From positions 1 through 42,734 of the IMG/VR virus record IMGVR_UViG_3300032820_000025: 42,734 nt of DNA; one strand, 5' to 3'. Origin of the DNA: a virus. The first letter of the stretch is position 1; every line of letters starts with the position of its first letter. The notes under the pieces are model-generated. The model saw only the letters and a list, made by a program, of their open reading frames with translations, did not search any database and was not told the DNA's origin. A program made the translations under genes and the position numbers. This document shows positions 11,178 through 24,820 of the stretch, one piece after another.

Positions 11178-12971
11178 ATGTTATTAAAAGAGATACTTTT
11201 ATTAGAATTAAACATTGAGCCAAACGGCCTTAAACGGTTAGATCAATGGATAGAAGATCTTGAACTTGATTTCTCGCATCTTATGCCAAAAGTAAATCAT
11301 GATAAATTTTTAAACAGATTAAAAAAAGATATTGTCAATGATCAACTTGGCATGGGAATATCTGATATAGTAGCGAAGTATAAGCCAACCGACGATGATC
11401 CCCCATTTATTAAAAGTGCATCAGGCGATGTACATACAATTTATCGCAATAAAGACGATATTCCAAAAGATGTTCAGAAAGGAATTGCATCTATTAATAT
11501 GGCTGTACCTTTTAAATCGGATCCCGAATATGAAAATTGGGTCGATATAAGACTATCTGCTCCCCACGGATTTCATTTAGCAAAACTTCAAGATGCAATA
11601 TATCAACGGTTATTAATTGCAGACGACCCAGAAACCGGCCAACATGATGTTATAAGTAAGATGATAAAGATGTATAAGAAATCACAAGAACAAAAAGGTG
11701 ACGAAGATTCTAAAGATGCTCTAAAAATTATGAAGAAGTATGAGCAAGGTAAGTTCAATCTTGAAGGTCTATATAATGTAATTGAAGAATTTCATTCTGC
11801 AGGTCCGTTATGGAAACGCGATCCAGTAGAAAGAAAACGATTAGAAAAAGAAGCACCAGTTATCATGAAATTTCCTGATGGCTTTATGTGGGTGCGTTTA
11901 GATTCAAAATTAGAGTTCGAACACGAATCAGGTATGTTAGGAAATTGCTTACATGGTTATTGCCCACCGCAAGCAGCTCCAACAGGCAAAGGATCTGGAG
12001 AAAGCAGAGATGCTGTTTATCAAGCATGGAAAGATGCAGGCAAGCCAATGGATAAAGAAGCATTAGCATACGAAAAAGCTGGCAACCATATATTAGATTA
12101 TTGGTGGTGGAATGACCAAGAGCATGGTGACGGCGTATCAGAACCAATGAGTGCAAATCTCCGTCTCTTAATGAAATGGATTAATAAAACAAAAGCAAAA
12201 TTATATCCAGATTGGAACGAGAATGATTTTGCTGATGATCAACCACATGGTTGGAAATATGGTGTAGATATGGATGATCATACATTTACAAAATATGTAG
12301 ATATCGATCATTATATAGCACATCATATTATAAATTGGGAATACTTGGCAGCCGATCCGGCTGACCCTGAGCATGAGCCAGATGAGTGGGATCATGGAAC
12401 AGTTCCTGATACTGCTGGCGGCCATTTAGTTTATAGTTTGCGTGATAAGAATGGTCAGTCACATGCCGCAATTGAATATGATAGGCATAAGGAAAAGCCA
12501 AAACAGTTAGAATTAAAGGGTAAGCAAAACGATGACCTTGATCAGAAATATATGAAGTATGTTGATGCTTTGAAAAAACACTGGAAAGAACACCCAGAGG
12601 ACTTCGGGGTAAAAGTAACTACTGATCAATTCGATGCTGAAGACGATGTAGAAGAAGGTAAAGTTATTCATCATGATTTTAGGTCTGATAAGCCAGACCT
12701 TTCGGATAATGGTGAATACGAATTACTTTCTTCAGATCCGGATCCAGATGTTTATGATCCAGATGGTAACAGGGATATGTTTGATCCTGATGCATCTGTA
12801 ATGGTTATTAGAAAAGTATCAACCGGCGAAGTTAGATATATGCCTGGTGTAGAGATTCCTGATATAGCAGATTTTGAAGACGCTGATTGGGAACATACTG
12901 AAGATGAAAAAGGAAGGGTACTCCGAGTGGTAGATAGTATACAACGTCTTAAACATTTGGCAGGAATATAA
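11178..12971 (+). CDS. Tandem paralogue A: PcfJ-like motif protein with LAGI tail (597 aa)
   Basis: The N-terminus MLLKEILLLE|L carries an LxE site at residue 10. The central segment reads WKRDPVERKRLEKEAPVIMKF, MWVRLDS, then GNCLHGYCP at residues 255-263, and later GHLVYSLRDKNGQSHAAIEY from about 415. The pairing of an 'NC-hGYC' motif with a following 'SLRD..G...aaiEy' strand is reminiscent of PcfJ-like domains (HCVG.Y ... SLR......TIE). The stretch between the motifs (residues 264-410) is Trp/His/Asp-rich. The protein ends RLKHLAGI. The adjacent downstream gene is a clear paralogue with every one of these landmarks. Biochemical role unknown; the PcfJ likeness is by eye. Confidence 0.6.
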   Translation: MLLKEILLLELNIEPNGLKRLDQWIEDLELDFSHLMPKVNHDKFLNRLKKDIVNDQLGMGISDIVAKYKPTDDDPPFIKSASGDVHTIYRNKDDIPKDVQKGIASINMAVPFKSDPEYENWVDIRLSAPHGFHLAKLQDAIYQRLLIADDPETGQHDVISKMIKMYKKSQEQKGDEDSKDALKIMKKYEQGKFNLEGLYNVIEEFHSAGPLWKRDPVERKRLEKEAPVIMKFPDGFMWVRLDSKLEFEHESGMLGNCLHGYCPPQAAPTGKGSGESRDAVYQAWKDAGKPMDKEALAYEKAGNHILDYWWWNDQEHGDGVSEPMSANLRLLMKWINKTKAKLYPDWNENDFADDQPHGWKYGVDMDDHTFTKYVDIDHYIAHHIINWEYLAADPADPEHEPDEWDHGTVPDTAGGHLVYSLRDKNGQSHAAIEYDRHKEKPKQLELKGKQNDDLDQKYMKYVDALKKHWKEHPEDFGVKVTTDQFDAEDDVEEGKVIHHDFRSDKPDLSDNGEYELLSSDPDPDVYDPDGNRDMFDPDASVMVIRKVSTGEVRYMPGVEIPDIADFEDADWEHTEDEKGRVLRVVDSIQRLKHLAGI

Positions 12972-12972
12972 A

Positions 12973-14247
12973 ATGATTATTAACGATATCTTTTTAATTG
13001 AAGCAAACGTTGAACCTAAAGCATTAGATCTGATTGACAAGTTTATTCATGAAATAGGTGAGGAATTAGAACATTCTAATCCTACAATTAATCATAATGC
13101 TTTCTTAAAAAGGTTAAAAAAGGATATCATTAATAATAATAGAATAATGGGTCCAGAAAAAGAGTTTACAGCATTAACACTTTACAAACCTAAAAAAACA
13201 GATCCAGATTATATTAAAAATGCTCAAGGTGAAGTATATACAATTGCTAAAAATGCGTTAAATGAAATATGGAATGAAATTTTAGATCTTTTTATACCCG
13301 ATGAAGGCGAACCTACTGCTCATGCACTGTTTAATAAATTTCATGAGTTAGTTAAAGATGCAAAAACATTAGATCCACATATTGCAAATAAACTTGTTCC
13401 TCTTAAAAAGAAATACGAACAAGGTAAATTTGATTTCGCAGGCCTAAAACAAGCAATGCAAGTTATGACGCAATTAGGTGCTCAAAAATGGAAACATGAT
13501 AAACAAGAAAGACACCGTGTAGAAACCGAAGCACCAATTATTATGAAGTTTAGAAATGGAATGATGTGGGTAAGGTTAGATTCACAAGAAGAAATGAAAC
13601 GCGAAGGCGACATGATGCAGAATTGCATTAGTGGTTATTGTCCGGTTGGAACAGGCGTAGATTTGACATTTGGATTACGAGATAAATTTAATCAAGAGGT
13701 TGAACTAGTAGATCAGACTGATGACGAGGCTTATGACTGGCTTGCAAATTGGTTTGCTGAGAATGACACAGATACACAAGATTTTTTGAGTAATCAACAA
13801 GACGATCTTAACGGTGATGCCTATGATGCAGTGGAAGAGGTATTGGGTATGGACGAAGACGAAGCATTTGACTGGATGCATTCTCAACTTATAGACGCCG
13901 ATGCTGATATGGAAACTGGAGAATTAATCAGCGGCCATCTAATTTATAGTTTGCGTGATAAACACGGAGAGTCTCATGTATCTGCAGAATACAATCCAAA
14001 TATGGATATGGATTATGTAGAGCCAGAATCAGCATTAGGCAAACAAAATGACGAGGCTAATGACAAATATAAACCATACATTGAAAAATTAAATGACTTT
14101 TTTGCAGAGAACCCCGAAACATTTGGTCCTAAAGGTAATACAAAGGATATGCCATTCCATCCAGATTATGATGATAATCGTGAACATCCGATGTATCATG
14201 ATGAATCGGTTGATCTAACTCGTATTAAACATTTAGCAGGGATATAA
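12973..14247 (+). CDS. Tandem paralogue B: PcfJ-like motif protein with LAGI tail (424 aa)
   Basis: This copy starts one base after paralogue A ends. It shares the LIE|A site at residues 8-10, the pattern 'YKP...DP.(F/Y)IK.A.G.V(H/Y)TI', 'EAPIIMKFRNGMMWVRLDSQ', the QNCISGYCP motif at residues 216-224, 'GHLIYSLRDKHGESHVSAEY' near 320, and the terminal RIKHLAGI. It is 173 residues shorter, mostly in the regions between motifs, and has an acidic Asp/Trp-rich insert (residues 245-310) in place of the longer insert of copy A. This is a tandem duplication that has diverged strongly at the sequence level while keeping its landmarks, suggesting both copies are under selection. Confidence 0.6.
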   Translation: MIINDIFLIEANVEPKALDLIDKFIHEIGEELEHSNPTINHNAFLKRLKKDIINNNRIMGPEKEFTALTLYKPKKTDPDYIKNAQGEVYTIAKNALNEIWNEILDLFIPDEGEPTAHALFNKFHELVKDAKTLDPHIANKLVPLKKKYEQGKFDFAGLKQAMQVMTQLGAQKWKHDKQERHRVETEAPIIMKFRNGMMWVRLDSQEEMKREGDMMQNCISGYCPVGTGVDLTFGLRDKFNQEVELVDQTDDEAYDWLANWFAENDTDTQDFLSNQQDDLNGDAYDAVEEVLGMDEDEAFDWMHSQLIDADADMETGELISGHLIYSLRDKHGESHVSAEYNPNMDMDYVEPESALGKQNDEANDKYKPYIEKLNDFFAENPETFGPKGNTKDMPFHPDYDDNREHPMYHDESVDLTRIKHLAGI

Positions 14248-14255: not shown

Positions 14256-14621
14256 ATGAAAGTTTTTGATTTGTTAAACGAAGCAATGCCAACAGAAATG
14301 GTACCTACACAATATATTGTAATAGATCGTACATTTCCAGAACGTAGGTTTATTGCAGATAGTAAAAAAGATATTGTTGATGCAATTATGGCTAATTCTA
14401 TTAAGCACTGGCAAGTCATTGAAGCAGATGACGAGGAAATTATAGCAGATTCAGATCACGATACTATTTTGCATGGTACTATTACGCCTATAGATAAAAC
14501 TTACAATCGTATAAAAGAGTTAATGTTTGATATGAGCGATGATATTCCAGATCATGCGTCATTTCCAAAAGTAAAAGCAGATATGGAAGTAATTGATCCT
14601 GAATGGTCAGAAGAAGCTTAA
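14256..14621 (+). CDS. Small CTS-bearing late protein (121 aa)
   Basis: The N-terminus MKVFDLLNE|A is a clear capsid-targeting-like peptide with an LxE site at residue 9. The rest contains a predicted alpha/beta unit (YIVIDRTFPERRFIADSKKDIVDAIMANSIKHWQVIEAD) and a helical acidic C-terminus. No family recognised. The gene has a perfect late promoter 5 nt before the ATG and no Shine-Dalgarno. It is the last plus-strand gene before a convergent minus-strand unit, and both share the palindromic stop TTAA at 14618-14621. Confidence 0.6.
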   Translation: MKVFDLLNEAMPTEMVPTQYIVIDRTFPERRFIADSKKDIVDAIMANSIKHWQVIEADDEEIIADSDHDTILHGTITPIDKTYNRIKELMFDMSDDIPDHASFPKVKADMEVIDPEWSEEA

Positions 14622-15529
14622 GCCCAGTCGAAGATTTGTCCAGATTCTAAATACAATAATGCTTTTCTTACTCCAATAGGAATTTTATTTCCTTTTTTAT
14701 CTGTAAACAGTGCAACATGAATAGCTTTACTTGGTTCTAGATTGCATTTATCTAAAAGTGTATTATAATGTTTTTCGTATTTGTTCCACCAAAAATCTGT
14801 TCCAAACTGTTTCATAAAATGTAAACCAGTCCACATATCAGCAACATTAATATAACTATAATCGTTCATAATTTTTATAGGTCCATTTATAGGTTTTCGT
14901 GAGTATCGTAGTCCAATACGATGAGCACCCATTCCAAATGCTTTACTTAATGAGAAAGTTATTGTTTGTATTGCAGGATGGTTTATATTAAAATTAATAT
15001 CTCTACAGCAAGGATACCATGCCGCATCGATATGTACAGGAATATTTAATTGTAAACATCGCATTAATATATTTTGCATGTTGGGATGTACATCATTGTT
15101 AAACCATGTAAATGGTGTCGCCATAATTAGTACGTCTCCTGCTGAAAGTGTACTGACTGTTCGTTTAGTAATATTTGGAAATAGTCTAGTATGATAGTTA
15201 TAGTCGCCATTGAAAATAACTATTTTGTTAGGATGCATTATGTAAAGTTCATCAAGTTGATGTGTTACTCCTAAACAAACATTTTTGTCTGGAAATGCTT
15301 CTAATCCAGTAAATGAAATTAGTTTATGATTACAAATCCATTCATGCATTTTTTCTTTAAACATATTAGTTAGTAATTCCATTTCACCATCCATAGAAGG
15401 AATTCCTGTAATTTCTGTGCTTGATCGCCATGGCTTTCGTAAGGTTAAATGATATTCATGTACTTCGGGATCGTACATTGGTTTTTTTTGTATGCCTCGT
15501 TTTCTTTGTATAAGATCATTTAATGTCAT
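14618..15529 (-). CDS. PLP-dependent aminotransferase-like protein (303 aa)
   Basis: The fold-type I aminotransferase signature is clear: VHIDAAWY with D168 (expected to bind the pyridine nitrogen of PLP), then SLSKAFGMGAHRIGLRYS with K196 as the Schiff-base lysine and R204 as the phosphate-contacting Arg. Upstream, GDVLIMATPFTWFNN matches the substrate-entry strand of class I/II enzymes. The chain is short (class I enzymes are about 380-420 aa) and the C-terminal small domain seems abbreviated. The gene overlaps the radical SAM gene upstream by 14 bases in the same direction, so they are almost certainly co-translated and may act on one substrate. The substrate is unknown. Confidence 0.7.
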   Translation of the reverse strand: MTLNDLIQRKRGIQKKPMYDPEVHEYHLTLRKPWRSSTEITGIPSMDGEMELLTNMFKEKMHEWICNHKLISFTGLEAFPDKNVCLGVTHQLDELYIMHPNKIVIFNGDYNYHTRLFPNITKRTVSTLSAGDVLIMATPFTWFNNDVHPNMQNILMRCLQLNIPVHIDAAWYPCCRDINFNINHPAIQTITFSLSKAFGMGAHRIGLRYSRKPINGPIKIMNDYSYINVADMWTGLHFMKQFGTDFWWNKYEKHYNTLLDKCNLEPSKAIHVALFTDKKGNKIPIGVRKALLYLESGQIFDWA

Positions 15530-16712
15530 TGTATATTACCATAGTATCAAATATATGAGGTGCAACATCTTGAATATTAAATCCTCTAACAGTATTCATC
15601 CAGTTAGTAAATTTTATAAATTGTTGATAATCTGATTTTAAATTTTTTGGTTCAGTATTTAAAGAATTTTGAATATTTTGTATGCTAGTTTTGTCATTTA
15701 TTTTTTTCTTTATTTTGTGTAATAAGTTATTTTTAGTTGAATTGGGTAATAGATTAGCATTTAGATAAAATTCAATAGCAGGATAAACTGAGAAGTCAAT
15801 TGTTCCATATTGGGAAAAGTGTTTAAATGTTTCAGTTATATTTTCTATATTATATATACTCATAGTATAGTTGATTCCCATTTGTTGAACATTACTATGA
15901 TTTAGTAATATTTGAAAATTCTTATCTATGTTATCAAAGTTAGTTCCTCTTACCCATTCGTATATTTTGTTTACTCCATCGATGCTGGCATATATATGAA
16001 GATTTTTTAATTTGTCAAAAGTTTTTAATGTTTTATCAGTTATGTGTGTAATGTTACTAACTATTTTTATTTTTAAGTTTGGTCTAACACTTCCTAATCT
16101 ATTAAGGAATGCTAAACAGTTTTTATCATATAATGGTTCTCCTCCTTTAATAATAAGAACTTCTAGATCGTTTATATTGTTTAATATAGAGTCTATAGTT
16201 TCTTTTTGTAATACAACTGGTTTAAATTCACGAATGCCATAACTGTTTTTTATTGTATTAAATAAATCATTAGGCATTAATTTTTCTTGCTGTGCCCAAT
16301 GAGAACTATGGACACTGTTACACATTACACAACCTAAGTTACATTGATTACTAAAACTAATATCCATATGTTTAATTTTAGGTTTAAGTTTTGGTGTCGA
16401 TCTTTTAAAAATTTTTTCTTTAGATGTAACATTTCGACTATTGGCATATTTTAATCTATGACTAATAATTCCTTTTTCTTCTCTTGTGTAACACATATTA
16501 CATGCTTGTACAAATTCATCTTTTAACATTTTTTGTCTAATGTTGTTTATTTGATTACTGTTAAATATATCTTCGATATTTTTGTGAGATTTTGTAAAAT
16601 CGTGTAAGACGTGTTCTTTATTAGGAGTCCACACAGGACATAATTGTGCTCTACCTTTTGGATCTATGGTAAGTCCTTCGAATGGAATATAACAGTAATG
16701 TTTTTCTTTCAT
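15516..16712 (-). CDS. Radical SAM enzyme with N-terminal auxiliary-cluster cysteines (398 aa)
   Basis: The core motif CNLGCVMC (C124, C128, C131; CX3CX2C) binds the SAM-reducing [4Fe-4S] cluster, and IIKGGEP supplies the SAM-binding GGE. Before the core lie C7, C25, C71 and C74 within CYIPFEGLTIDPKGRAQLCP and CNMCY, the twitch/SPASM-like arrangement known from 'twitch-domain radical SAM' proteins, including phage ones. An in-frame ATG at 16727 lies too close to the promoter box (1 nt), so I chose the ATG at 16712. The gene is followed without a gap by the PLP enzyme. Together they form a minus-strand cassette with its own late-type box. Substrate unknown; peptide or nucleotide modification are possible. 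Confidence 0.8.
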   Translation of the reverse strand: MKEKHYCYIPFEGLTIDPKGRAQLCPVWTPNKEHVLHDFTKSHKNIEDIFNSNQINNIRQKMLKDEFVQACNMCYTREEKGIISHRLKYANSRNVTSKEKIFKRSTPKLKPKIKHMDISFSNQCNLGCVMCNSVHSSHWAQQEKLMPNDLFNTIKNSYGIREFKPVVLQKETIDSILNNINDLEVLIIKGGEPLYDKNCLAFLNRLGSVRPNLKIKIVSNITHITDKTLKTFDKLKNLHIYASIDGVNKIYEWVRGTNFDNIDKNFQILLNHSNVQQMGINYTMSIYNIENITETFKHFSQYGTIDFSVYPAIEFYLNANLLPNSTKNNLLHKIKKKINDKTSIQNIQNSLNTEPKNLKSDYQQFIKFTNWMNTVRGFNIQDVAPHIFDTMVIYNDIK

Positions 16713-16728
16713 GATAAGTAATAACATA

Positions 16729-16736
16729 TATTTATT
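16729..16736 (-). promoter_or_regulatory. Late promoter-like box AATAAATA (minus strand)
   Basis: Reading on the minus strand, AATAAATA lies 16 nt before the chosen ATG of the radical SAM gene. It is divergent from, and close to, the sigma70 promoter of gp32. Confidence 0.45.
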
Positions 16737-16844: not shown

Positions 16845-17837
16845 ATGGCAACTTTGGCAGAACTACGAGCAAAATTACAGGCTCAAGACCAGCGACAAAA
16901 TTCAGCTCGCGAAACAGATAACGCAATCTATGCGTTTTGGAATATCCCAAACGACACTACGGCAACATTACGGTTTCTTCCCGATGGGGACGAAAGCAAC
17001 ACATTCTTTTGGCAAGAACGTCAAATGATTCGAATTGTTTTCCCAGGTGTAAAAGGGCAGGATGAGGCACGGAGCGTTACCGTTAATGTGCCTTGTATAG
17101 AGATGTGGGGCGACACTTGCCCCGTTCATGCAGAAATTCGTCCGTGGTTTAAGGACCCGACATTGGAAGATGTTGCGCGAAAATATTGGAAGAAACGTTC
17201 TTATATTTTCCAAGGGTTTGTTGTAAACAATCCACTGGACGGTGATGTAGCACCAGAAAATCCGATTAGACGTTTTGTTATTAATCCTTCAATATATAAG
17301 ATTATCAAAGCCGCTTTAATGGATCCGGAAATGGAATATCTACCAACAGATTATGTTAATGGTACTGATTTCCGTCTTACAAAAACACAAAAAGGTCAGT
17401 ATGCTGACTATTCAACATCAAACTGGGCACGGCGAGAACGTGGTCTTGAGGATGATGAATTAGAAGCAGTTAATTCTAACGGATTATTTACTTTGTCAGA
17501 TTACTTACCAAAACGACCATCAGCCGATTCAGTTGCGGCGATTTATGAGATGTTTCAAGCATCCGTTGATGGTGAATTGTATGATCCTGATAAATGGAGT
17601 GATTTTTATCGCCCATTTGGTGTCCAAGCGGCATCAACTGAGAAAGTAGAATCAAAAACAGTAAGTGACGGACTTGGAACAGGAACTGTTACCAAAGTGA
17701 CGACTTCTGATGATGTTCCGGGCTTTGAAAAAGAAGAAAAAGCCGCGGCAACTACAGAAAGTCCAGAAAGTAAGTCAAATGCTGATGAGATTCTTAGCAT
17801 GATTCGTAGCCGTGCAAAGGCAAAAGATACTGCTTAA
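16845..17837 (+). CDS. 32: Single-stranded DNA-binding protein, gp32
   Basis: gp32 coats ssDNA during T4-type replication and recombination and recruits UvsY, gp59 and primase-helicase. The family layout is present: a basic N-terminal self-association region (AELRAKLQAQDQR, residues 5-17), an OB-fold core with aromatic-rich segments (FWNIPNDTTATLRFLPDG, KYWKKRSYIFQGFVV), and an acidic, flexible C-terminal tail with an AAATTESPESKSNADEIL segment. The zinc region retains C84, C92 and H95, but no His lies in residues 1-83, so the fourth ligand of T4 gp32 (His64) has no visible counterpart. It has a consensus promoter upstream and a strong terminator downstream. Confidence 0.93.
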   Translation: MATLAELRAKLQAQDQRQNSARETDNAIYAFWNIPNDTTATLRFLPDGDESNTFFWQERQMIRIVFPGVKGQDEARSVTVNVPCIEMWGDTCPVHAEIRPWFKDPTLEDVARKYWKKRSYIFQGFVVNNPLDGDVAPENPIRRFVINPSIYKIIKAALMDPEMEYLPTDYVNGTDFRLTKTQKGQYADYSTSNWARRERGLEDDELEAVNSNGLFTLSDYLPKRPSADSVAAIYEMFQASVDGELYDPDKWSDFYRPFGVQAASTEKVESKTVSDGLGTGTVTKVTTSDDVPGFEKEEKAAATTESPESKSNADEILSMIRSRAKAKDTA

Positions 17838-20322: not shown

Positions 20323-20538
20323 ATGTTAAAAGAACAAACAAATAAGATTATGACAGATTGTATTGAATCGATTATTAAAGTTGGCGCGAAGCATGGAATA
20401 AATGTTAAGGATGAAAATTTTGTAAAAGATCTTGCATTATCATCTGGTTTTATTAGGGCTGCATTTGACCGACAATTAGGAAAGCCTAGTGTGTTGCACG
20501 AAGGCATGTCTGATCTTATGAAAGATAATTTAGTTTAG
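20323..20538 (+). CDS. Small hypothetical early protein (71 aa)
   Basis: No family recognised. The peptide is mostly helical (TNKIMTDCIESIIKVGAKHGINV, FVKDLALSSGFIRAAFDRQLG) and ends in VLHEGMSDLMKDNLV. It is preceded by a two-hexamer sigma70 promoter and a GAGG ribosome site, so it is likely expressed early. Its last 23 bases overlap the end of a convergent radical SAM gene, and no terminator lies between them, so antisense pairing of the two 3' ends is possible. Confidence 0.6.
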   Translation: MLKEQTNKIMTDCIESIIKVGAKHGINVKDENFVKDLALSSGFIRAAFDRQLGKPSVLHEGMSDLMKDNLV

Positions 20539-21478
20539 TTGTTTTGAAATCTGTTACATTGACGCAATAGTCATTTGGGCATTGAACAGGATCGTTAGGA
20601 AATTGTATGCTTTGAGGATTGTTAACATTTCCGAGAGCACCCCTTCCGCCGCCTGCTTTGCACCATGACCCTCGGCTTATCCGGCCGTCGATTCCTATAA
20701 AGATTTTTTCTACACCTATGTAGCAATTCCATCCTTTAAAACGATTTTTATTCTCGTTAATCCAACTAGCAGGATAAATGGTTTCGTTTTTCCCATCTTT
20801 GTATTCTATTTTAAATCGTGGATTAAATTTTTTTGATTTTGGTTGTTCCCAATTCGAATCGTAATTATTAAAGATGCTATATTTGGCCATAAAGTCTAAT
20901 TGCTCACTTGAGTATGGGTAAAATATATGTCCAAAGTTAATTCGTAATGGTTTTAATATAACAGGGTAACCATTATTATTTTTTGTTAATGTGATTGCAT
21001 TATTGACACTGGTATCCCAGTCGTCATGTTTCATTGGAACATTTGCTGTAACATCTGCTGTCTCATTCATTAGTTGTGCTACTTCTAACATATGTTCAGC
21101 ATCACCTTCCTCGGTATGGCAAGTTAAATTAAGCACATCGAAAATCTCTTGATAGTCTTTCCACCAACGCAATGTTCGTGATCCATTTGATAAGCAAGTT
21201 ATAATATTATCTGGATTACTTTTTATTAAATCTAGTTTTTCTTTTATTTTTGGATCCATTGTAATTTCACCACCAGATAAAATAAAGTGTAATGGTAAAG
21301 TAGTGTGTTGATATATTTTATCAAGCAGTTGTTGTAATTTGTCTATTCCAATCCATAACGTTGATCCATTGTGTAATTCATCAGGGCAGTAACTACAGGA
21401 AAAATTGCAGGTGCTACCGACTGACCAATCTACGGTAAAGTATTTCTCTATATTAGTGACTAAACGAATATCTTCCAC
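20516..21478 (-). CDS. Radical SAM enzyme with C-terminal SPASM-like cysteines (320 aa)
   Basis: CNFSCSYC gives C24, C28 and C31 (CX3CX2C) and LSGGE at 68-71 binds SAM. C252, C273, C300 and C305 near the end, in NCYIGVEKIFIGIDGRISRGSWC and CPNDYC, fit a SPASM-type domain with auxiliary clusters; such enzymes often modify peptides or proteins. The start is GTG at 21478, placed 5 nt after a CATAAATA box on the same strand. The product is unrelated in detail to the other two radical SAM genes here. It is convergent with, and overlaps, the small gene at 20323. Confidence 0.8.
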   Translation of the reverse strand: MEDIRLVTNIEKYFTVDWSVGSTCNFSCSYCPDELHNGSTLWIGIDKLQQLLDKIYQHTTLPLHFILSGGEITMDPKIKEKLDLIKSNPDNIITCLSNGSRTLRWWKDYQEIFDVLNLTCHTEEGDAEHMLEVAQLMNETADVTANVPMKHDDWDTSVNNAITLTKNNNGYPVILKPLRINFGHIFYPYSSEQLDFMAKYSIFNNYDSNWEQPKSKKFNPRFKIEYKDGKNETIYPASWINENKNRFKGWNCYIGVEKIFIGIDGRISRGSWCKAGGGRGALGNVNNPQSIQFPNDPVQCPNDYCVNVTDFKTTKLNYLS

Positions 21479-21483
21479 GCAAT

Positions 21484-21491
21484 TATTTATG
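21484..21491 (-). promoter_or_regulatory. Late promoter box CATAAATA (minus strand)
   Basis: Seven of eight match, ending 5 nt before the GTG start of the radical SAM gene (spacer ATTGC), the same geometry as the plus-strand late genes. Confidence 0.6.
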
Positions 21492-23528: not shown

Positions 23529-23553
23529 CCGGGGGGAGACCCCCGGTTTTTTT
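23529..23553 (+). terminator. Rho-independent terminator after the AAA+ gene
   Basis: A 7-bp stem CCGGGGG/CCCCCGG with a GAGA tetraloop is followed by seven T. Its last bases overlap the stop codon of the convergent radical SAM gene, so it sits exactly between two converging genes. Confidence 0.9.
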
Positions 23554-24820
23554 AACGAAATCTACTGCAAGTATAACCGCATAACATTAATCGAGCAGGA
23601 TCCCCATCATAGTCATGTTTCCAACTTTGTACTAATTTGTTACTAAACCATTCATGATTTAAAATTTCTTCAAGTGTGTGATAATACAGATTATTAAATT
23701 TACTTCCATACTTACCGTGTGTTTCTTGATAAAACTGATATGCCATTTCGTTTCCATTAGGATCGTCCCAAGGTACTTGTTTTTTTCCAAAACGCACACC
23801 GCCTACTTCACAGCAAGGCCAAACTTCTCCATTAAACATAAATTGTAAACCTGGATCTCCGTCTTGATTTTCAGTATATGAATCTGCATTTTTATCCCAT
23901 CGACATTGTATTCGTCCATGCTCCCAAAATTTATCAATATCATTGTTATATTGTTTTAAATGTTCTTTAAATAAATCTATATTTTCATCTGCTGTTTTAT
24001 CTATAACATATGGTAAGTCAGCTTTTTCATTTTTATTTGTTTTGTCTCCTGACTCTACACGATCTCCTGTAAGTTCTTCGGCAAATCCTTTTTGTTCCAT
24101 TGGTGCATAACCTTCGATTGCTTCGTCAGGATTCTCTGCTTCCCATATTGTTTCGTTTCTTCCATAACCTCCAACAGTAAAAAAGTTTTCAAATCCCATG
24201 TCAAAAGCCATACTTTTTGCTTCATTAATTTGATGTTCGTTATGTTCGAATATAATAAATTGCCATTCAGCATGTCCGCCAGCATTAATAAATGCTTTAG
24301 AATTTTCCATGCATTTTTTCCAGTTAACTTGTCGGCGATATATATGATTAGTGTCTTCCAGTCCATCAAATCCAAAAACAACTTTTCCAGGATATTGTTT
24401 TATTTCATCACCAGTATTGTATTTTTTATTTAAAGTTTGTGCTAATTCTTTCCACCAACCAGTAGAGTTAATACCTCCGTTAGTTGCAATATTAATGATA
24501 CAAAGTTCTTGTTTTACGCCAGCTTTTAATCGTGCTTCGATATTTTGTTTACTGATCATCCAATCGCACCCTCTTATAAGATCAGGATGTAATGGTGGAT
24601 CTCCATAGTTGCCACAAATGTCAAGCAACTCGAGTGAGTTTACAATGGGTTTTAAGAAAGATTTATAAAGATTCCAAGGCATATCTGCAAGTGGCATATT
24701 TTTATTAAGATATTTCCCATCAACATTACGAGCACATCGTAAACAAAGAGCATTACATTTAGTAGTATAATCTAGTTGTACTCTTTTAATTTGAGGAACT
24801 GTTATGTATTGATTATTCAT
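23552..24820 (-). CDS. Radical SAM/SPASM-like enzyme (422 aa)
   Basis: The core motif CNALCLRC gives C22, C26 and C29. The usual GGE is replaced by CGNYGDPPLHPD (residues 69-80), the GNYGDP variant seen in some SPASM radical SAM families. C-terminal cysteines C306, C336, C337, C414 and C418, in CRWD, NGEVWPCCEVGG and LCGYTCSRF, fit one or two auxiliary clusters. The insert at 225-300 is acidic. The gene starts at an ATG 5 nt after the box AGTAAATA. The likely role is modification of a peptide, protein or small molecule late in infection; the substrate is not inferable from the window. Confidence 0.8.
   Translation of the reverse strand: MNNQYITVPQIKRVQLDYTTKCNALCLRCARNVDGKYLNKNMPLADMPWNLYKSFLKPIVNSLELLDICGNYGDPPLHPDLIRGCDWMISKQNIEARLKAGVKQELCIINIATNGGINSTGWWKELAQTLNKKYNTGDEIKQYPGKVVFGFDGLEDTNHIYRRQVNWKKCMENSKAFINAGGHAEWQFIIFEHNEHQINEAKSMAFDMGFENFFTVGGYGRNETIWEAENPDEAIEGYAPMEQKGFAEELTGDRVESGDKTNKNEKADLPYVIDKTADENIDLFKEHLKQYNNDIDKFWEHGRIQCRWDKNADSYTENQDGDPGLQFMFNGEVWPCCEVGGVRFGKKQVPWDDPNGNEMAYQFYQETHGKYGSKFNNLYYHTLEEILNHEWFSNKLVQSWKHDYDGDPARLMLCGYTCSRFR

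Follow-up and report, generated by a model that had tools for sequence, protein, structure and literature searches.

A coupled and repeatedly fused radical SAM and PLP enzyme pair as a possible biosynthetic module of T4-related large phages

Phages related to T4 can carry several to many radical S-adenosylmethionine (radical SAM) genes: passages in two papers describe a T4-like environmental genome with 12 of them (PMC5332604) and radical SAM cassettes that set apart two pelagimyophages (PMC7029224). In these passages no pyridoxal phosphate (PLP) partner, fusion, or pathway is named, and one of them links the radical SAM genes to iron-sulfur (Fe-S) metabolism. A virus record of 42,734 bases (IMG/VR record IMGVR_UViG_3300032820_000025, positions 1 to 42,734; the whole stretch analyzed, hereafter the window) carries a radical SAM gene that overlaps the gene of a PLP protein. 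The pair consists of two minus-strand genes sited between the gene for a 121 amino acid (aa) protein and that for a single-strand DNA binding protein (SSB). Until now radical SAM genes of marine phages have appeared in lists of auxiliary genes with no reaction assigned to them. Phages rich in such genes are already known, but the coupled pair and its fusions are apparently undescribed (no description of either was found in the open-licence PubMed Central literature), so that known enzyme superfamilies appear here in what is apparently a new coupled, repeatedly fused arrangement.

Two described systems are close to parts of this locus. The radical SAM protein resembles family NF033640 (N_Twi_rSAM) over its full length, with an N-terminal twitch domain, a C-terminal radical SAM core, and 4+3 cysteines; the family description names no reaction, and the window's lineage differs in being coupled to a PLP enzyme. 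For the two enzymes together the working analogy is butirosin synthesis, in which an aminotransferase step follows oxidation by BtrN. The relevant part of PMC9012708 has BtrN oxidizing 2-deoxy-scyllo-inosamine, with an auxiliary cluster as the likely electron acceptor, and describes the SPASM/twitch domain as a C-terminal extension, whereas the twitch of the window protein is N-terminal. What the systems may share is an alcohol oxidation by a radical SAM enzyme with one auxiliary cluster, then a PLP-dependent amination. The window differs further in having no antibiotic cluster, and butirosin aminotransferases are DegT-type whereas the window's PLP protein is class I/II-like.

The two enzymes very probably act in one pathway. 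The sequence-only reading had proposed as much, and the proposal gains support from fusions in both orders, linkage across a clade, presence or absence as a unit, and an operon shared with relatives of a second radical SAM gene of the window. The fuller statement, that they make up one functional two-enzyme, sometimes one-polypeptide biosynthetic module, gained and lost as a block and working by the mechanism proposed below, we regard as nearly evenly balanced, leaning slightly to the negative.

Thirteen loci (designated by L numbers), spread over 12 contigs and collapsing to 4 representatives at 80% identity, encode both domains in a single polypeptide, with radical SAM first at L172, L190, L191, and L237 (813 aa) and at L195-L200 (820-826 aa), and PLP first at L202, L204, and L205 (703-715 aa). 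In a quick FastTree of radical SAM domains with many long branches (rows collapsed at 75%, 100 of 194), the fused domains belong to two lineages, each distinct from the window's. Since neither lineage is that of the window, linkage arose more than once. The radical SAM protein nearest to the PLP-first fusions is encoded at L220 by a separate gene, upstream of the PLP gene and overlapping it by 14 nucleotides (nt), and the window-type proteins (window, L023, L027, L183) form a clade whose every row has a PLP partner. Through the fusions these radical SAM genes gain a defined PLP partner, so that in place of an “unknown radical SAM” there is a two-step reaction open to testing, for which few product classes come into question; the single-polypeptide forms (703-826 aa) are directly expressible.

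On the PLP side, rows were collapsed at 80% identity to 71 representatives, and L174 (<180 aa) was dropped ahead of the tree. In the window's clade 18 of 22 rows either are fusions or have a neighboring radical SAM gene, vs. 2 of the 48 other rows; the linkage labels change six times on the tree, against a mean of 17.7 when shuffled, and none of 500 shuffles gave a number as low.

The insertion site was surveyed in 80 loci found via the SSB protein. Both flanks are visible in 12, of which five have both genes, seven have neither, and none has one alone. Four further loci have the radical SAM gene on a contig that ends ahead of the PLP position; in the other 64, both flanks are not visible and no PLP gene is listed upstream. 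The seven empty loci represent two lineages, five of them being identical over 300 nt and the other two being L104 and L105, whose gap (L104:7100-7257, L105:6378-6535, between the flanking gene and SSB) looks like a deletion scar: it contains a 34-nt remnant of a radical SAM 3′ end, with alignment scores of 38 and 43 where the best of 500 shuffles gave 35 and 40. Because this piece is retained, the cassette is, to judge from the remnant, lost as well as gained. The pair is also found at another site, near relatives of DnaB helicase (L027, L182-L184). In one relative the cassette's radical SAM and PLP genes are separated by another radical SAM gene, for a B12-binding protein of 475 aa (L028:5534-6961).

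The anatomy given by the sequence-only reading was confirmed throughout: radical SAM and PLP open reading frames (ORFs), a CNLGCVMC motif with four further N-terminal cysteines, the 14-base overlap, and D168, K196, and R204 in the PLP ORF. The radical SAM ORF may be read as 403 aa from an ATG at 16727 or as 398 aa from an ATG at 16712, the latter being the likelier start because relatives begin at the equivalent of MKEKHYCYIPF. In 403-aa numbering the motif comprises C129, C133, and C136, and the N-terminal cysteines are C12, C30, C76, and C79; these seven cluster cysteines and a GGE motif are invariant in 18 of 18 aligned relatives. The protein combines CxxxCxxC and a PF04055 match (6e-12, 46.4 bits vs. 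a cut-off of 29.5) with a full-length match to NF033640 (2.5e-73, 247.5 bits vs. 170, residues 9-393) and extra auxiliary-cluster cysteines, in a region that also matches SPASM (PF13186; 1.2e-5, 25.9 bits vs. 21.5, residues 12-80). Among the matches listed, the folds nearest to its model are BlsE, SkfB, anSME, SuiB, and DesII, tied at Z 13.7-12.7. The substrates of these enzymes are sugars or peptides, and the ties of the predicted structure would offer no choice between the two.

The PLP protein matched no Pfam family even at E 10 (Aminotran_1_2 included), and no NCBIfam model over its cut-off. Its AlphaFold model (predicted local distance difference test score, pLDDT, 82; predicted template modelling score, pTM, 0.84) is matched by Foldseek to enzymes of the class I/II aminotransferase fold (best E 1.4e-10), and the structure alignment program VIA-align gave a top Z of 18.9 (root-mean-square deviation 4.1, 273 residues aligned), with Z 18.9-17.6 across the best 50 listed. 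HisC, CobD decarboxylase, MalY and C-S lyases, RohP, and NifS share with it the fold, K196, D168, S193-x-x-K, and R204; class I/II enzymes differ in size, at ~330-400 aa vs. 303 aa. In this class the lysine forms the Schiff base, the aspartate contacts the pyridine nitrogen, and the serine and arginine bind the phosphate. D168 and S193 are each kept in 70 of 70 relatives and R204 in 67 of 70; K196, whose loss in homologues the sequence-only reading had named as a sign against the pair, is likewise present in 70 of 70. A class-I aminotransferase signature fits the window protein but only 14 of 71 relatives, and was not used as a test.

The presence of NifS chains among the Foldseek matches suggests another role, as a NifS-like desulfurase providing sulfur for supply or repair of radical SAM Fe-S clusters, or for insertion. 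Phages rich in radical SAM genes have many clusters to supply, and genes for Fe-S assembly are among those they carry (PMC5332604). NifS, however, is one among many matches of a similar kind. The catalytic cysteine of desulfurases is in a C-terminal loop, and no cysteine is invariant in alignments A2 and A4 of the PLP proteins, C175 (beside the active-site aspartate stretch) being kept in 7 of the 8 rows of A4. This role seems quite improbable.

IMG/VR scans with either single protein gave no matches, and relatives were reached only with profiles. A plasmid search gave no match, and one pattern-limited genome scan gave no cellular PLP homologue: its sole match, L091, is phage-type DNA. This contig is binned in a Candidatus Paceibacter metagenome-assembled genome, looks like phage with a Mosig-type gene set, and is likely a binning error. 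Among phage isolates, the only PLP relative is Mosig_00079 of Pelagibacter phage Mosig EXVC030M, a putative aminotransferase; a fused PLP-radical SAM query matched only radical SAM genes of Vibrio phages. Mosig_00079 is homologous (24.8%, E 2e-8) with the catalytic residues kept, but belongs to another clade and has no detected adjacent radical SAM gene, sitting instead with hydroxylases, a desaturase, and reductases. A term search of the Mosig announcement (PMC7892664) found neither “radical” nor “aminotransferase.”

If the pair does act as a module, the twitch radical SAM enzyme would form a 5′-deoxyadenosyl radical at its CxxxCxxC cluster and abstract hydrogen from a carbon (C-H or C-OH) in a small substrate (a sugar, a cyclitol, or something amino-acid-like); the second electron would pass to an auxiliary cluster on C12/C30/C76/C79, yielding a carbonyl. 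The PLP enzyme, with K196 in the Schiff base, D168 at the pyridine nitrogen, and S193/R204 at the phosphate, could then aminate this carbonyl or otherwise rework an adjacent amine, translational coupling or fusion holding the intermediate between the two sites. Oxidation by a twitch enzyme with amination as the next step has a known precedent in BtrN; for the window pair it is a possible chemistry, which we would not call probable. Further radical SAM enzymes might serve the same pathway, the window having two more, and so might an amidinotransferase in some phages. More speculatively, and somewhat unlikely as it stands, the loci could be parts of a mobile, dispersed pathway of large marine-type phages, in which a phage-specific PLP enzyme, fused time and again to a radical SAM partner in one order or the other, works with several radical SAM enzymes and sometimes an amidinotransferase. 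What it makes during infection would be a molecule or decoration that resembles a natural product and is aminated or guanidinylated. Were this product of the small-molecule kind, phages would be encoding natural-product-type biosynthesis in several steps.

The two further reverse-strand radical SAM genes, which the sequence-only reading's entry on the pair left unmentioned, are at sites separate from it. Relatives of the second come immediately after the PLP gene in L182-L184 (~30% identity), giving an operon radical SAM 1-PLP-radical SAM 2 in L184, and two genes away in L027/L180. In L256 (11.5 kb), two relatives of the second, two of the third, and a 616-aa relative of the pair's radical SAM protein stand in one run, adjoining an amidinotransferase gene and a PLP gene that shares 50% identity with that of the window. 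In a tblastn search of the phage collection the second had no match and the third one weak match, in Mosig. Amidinotransferase genes (Protein Data Bank, PDB, matches HsvA, 7e-10, and SxtG, 1e-7) are also neighbors in L027, L185, L187, L221, and L235/L236/L238, and lean toward an amine-bearing product; the sequence-only reading had suggested an amino-sugar, a nucleotide, or a virion peptide as possible substrates. As a fixed member of the pathway the amidinotransferase was dropped to an occasional one, given its count in comparison loci (below). Some records with related PLP genes are especially rich in twitch radical SAM genes: G044, G022, and G048 (L172-L178) have 19, 17, and 10 NF033640 matches, a few being pieces of one frame, and these include a 1417-aa protein with two radical SAM units directly ahead of the fused radical SAM-PLP gene.

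Pfam scans of 50 of the 63 listed island neighbors bear on two other readings. Four are radical SAM proteins, four Asp/Arg hydroxylases, three QueC-like proteins, and two Clp proteases; those found once include a carbamoyltransferase, a 2-oxoglutarate (2OG) oxygenase, a nitroreductase, an Asn synthase, an ATE_C protein, and a DUF6473 protein, among others. The hydroxylases and the ATE_C protein would suit a system whose target is a phage protein (tail fiber, capsid) or a host protein, with the radical SAM enzymes altering its residues and the PLP protein acting further on a residue so altered. SPASM/twitch enzymes are often peptide-acting, the nearest folds include anSME, SkfB, and SuiB, and Mosig's related PLP gene is in a modification-type cluster near tail-fiber genes. 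The window cassette, however, is not next to tail genes, free amino acids or keto acids are the usual substrates of class I/II PLP enzymes, and nothing like the precursor peptide of a ribosomally synthesized and post-translationally modified peptide (RiPP) adjoins the pair in the gap ahead of the radical SAM gene, the stretch covered: its 132 nt, up to the SSB gene, wholly contain no minus-strand ORF of at least 20 aa. Protein modification is on balance unlikely. The QueC-like neighbors, and the position of the window's cassettes beside the replication genes SSB, UvsX, and UvsY, could conceivably point to a modified nucleotide made for the phage genome. The QueC matches are weak (best 3.6e-6), possibly represent other ATP-PPi (ATP-pyrophosphate) enzymes, and occur in relatives rather than in the window, and relatives that lack the pair have replication genes around the site as well; hypermodification appears improbable.

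Other island genes were noted in passing. In L185 and L187 a gene for a small DUF6614-type protein is close to the amidinotransferase gene, near the PLP gene (L187:8871-9200, PF20319 4.6e-21; a similar-looking protein at L185:6635-6988). A conserved unannotated family with a possible DxD motif (L205:1717-2415 and 16 homologues, 17 matches) has no Pfam or PDB match; such a motif is glycosyltransferase-like, and with no PDB match no claim was built on this.

Several observations count against a dedicated two-enzyme module. Adjacency partly reflects the radical SAM-dense islands around many clade members: 20 of 48 pair-clade representatives are radical SAM-linked, vs. 71 of the 657 remaining genes at these loci, and the linked counts include opposite-strand neighbors (L187, L188). 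Against the wider pathway, the second radical SAM gene was found in 6 of 11 records searched and the third in 1 of 11, the records being mostly fragments and one of them from the window's species. Amidinotransferase genes are not clearly enriched, occurring in 15 of 50 records that carry a PLP gene (selected loci rather than the full 80 of the profile search) vs. 8 of 41 comparison records (26 SSB-anchored, 15 with a Mosig-clade PLP gene). The candidate substrate-carboxylate arginine, R288, is aligned in 12 of 22 clade rows, with gaps in 9, and BtrN is absent among the best 50 matches of both radical SAM structure lists. In the sister PLP clade, of the pelagiphage Mosig type, 1 of 23 is linked. 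This last count, with a variable insertion site, would suit two unrelated cargo genes traveling together by chance in an insertion hotspot. The fusions escape the density objection, and occur in both orders with different radical SAM lineages; at one site the genes are present all or none, and the pair is intact at the DnaB-side site of L184. Chance co-travel is largely refuted by the fusions and very improbable. The sequence-only reading had named separate occurrence of the genes in relatives as a sign against the pair; they co-occur there.

Table 1. Features of the window discussed in the text.
Positions	Strand	Feature	Basis or remark
14256..14621	+	left flanking gene, 121 aa	no assigned function; last core gene ahead of cassette
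14618..15529	-	short fold-type I (class I/II aminotransferase-like) PLP enzyme, 303 aa, no Pfam family	model, structure matches, residues
15516..15529	-	14-nt overlap of radical SAM and PLP genes	
15516..16712	-	radical SAM enzyme, N-terminal twitch type (NF033640), 398 aa	profile matches, invariant Cys
16729..16736	-	late-promoter-like octamer AATAAATA	24 nt 5′ of 398-aa start; weak evidence
16845..17837	+	right flanking gene, SSB	phrog_1192, 1.4e-62
20516..21478	-	second radical SAM gene, 320 aa	CNFSCSYC
21484..21491	-	late-promoter-like octamer CATAAATA	13 nt 5′ of second radical SAM start; short spacing for promoter
23552..24820	-	third radical SAM gene, 422 aa	CNALCLRC; weak C-terminal SPASM match

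The overlap of the paired genes recurs elsewhere, at 14 nt in L023, L024, L025, L027, and L220, 4 nt in L026, and 1 nt in L182-L184. Expression late in infection, also proposed by the sequence-only reading, gains slight support from the two octamers of Table 1, called from a late-promoter consensus. Both minus-strand copies of NATAAATA in the window lie just 5′ of radical SAM starts, but at an odd spacing; only their placing stands out, the counts (12 plus, 2 minus) showing no excess on either strand over Markov expectations of 14.8 and 12.1.

The core genes of the window are on the plus strand (terminase, virion protein, SSB, UvsX, UvsY, primase, helicases). This gene set, with a terminase nearest, among isolates, to those of Pseudomonas PA5oct-like phages (~287 kb; 52.6%), places the phage among the T4-related large phages. 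The 121-aa flanking protein has a borderline match to a Tse3 N-terminal domain model (27.7 bits vs. a cut-off of 27.2), probably by chance. Ahead of it, at 11178-14247, are two adjoining paralogue-like proteins of 597 and 424 aa with the common stretch EAP[VI]IMKF..G.MWVRLDS; the first has no significant Pfam family, and its 424-aa neighbor has a weak tape-measure match.

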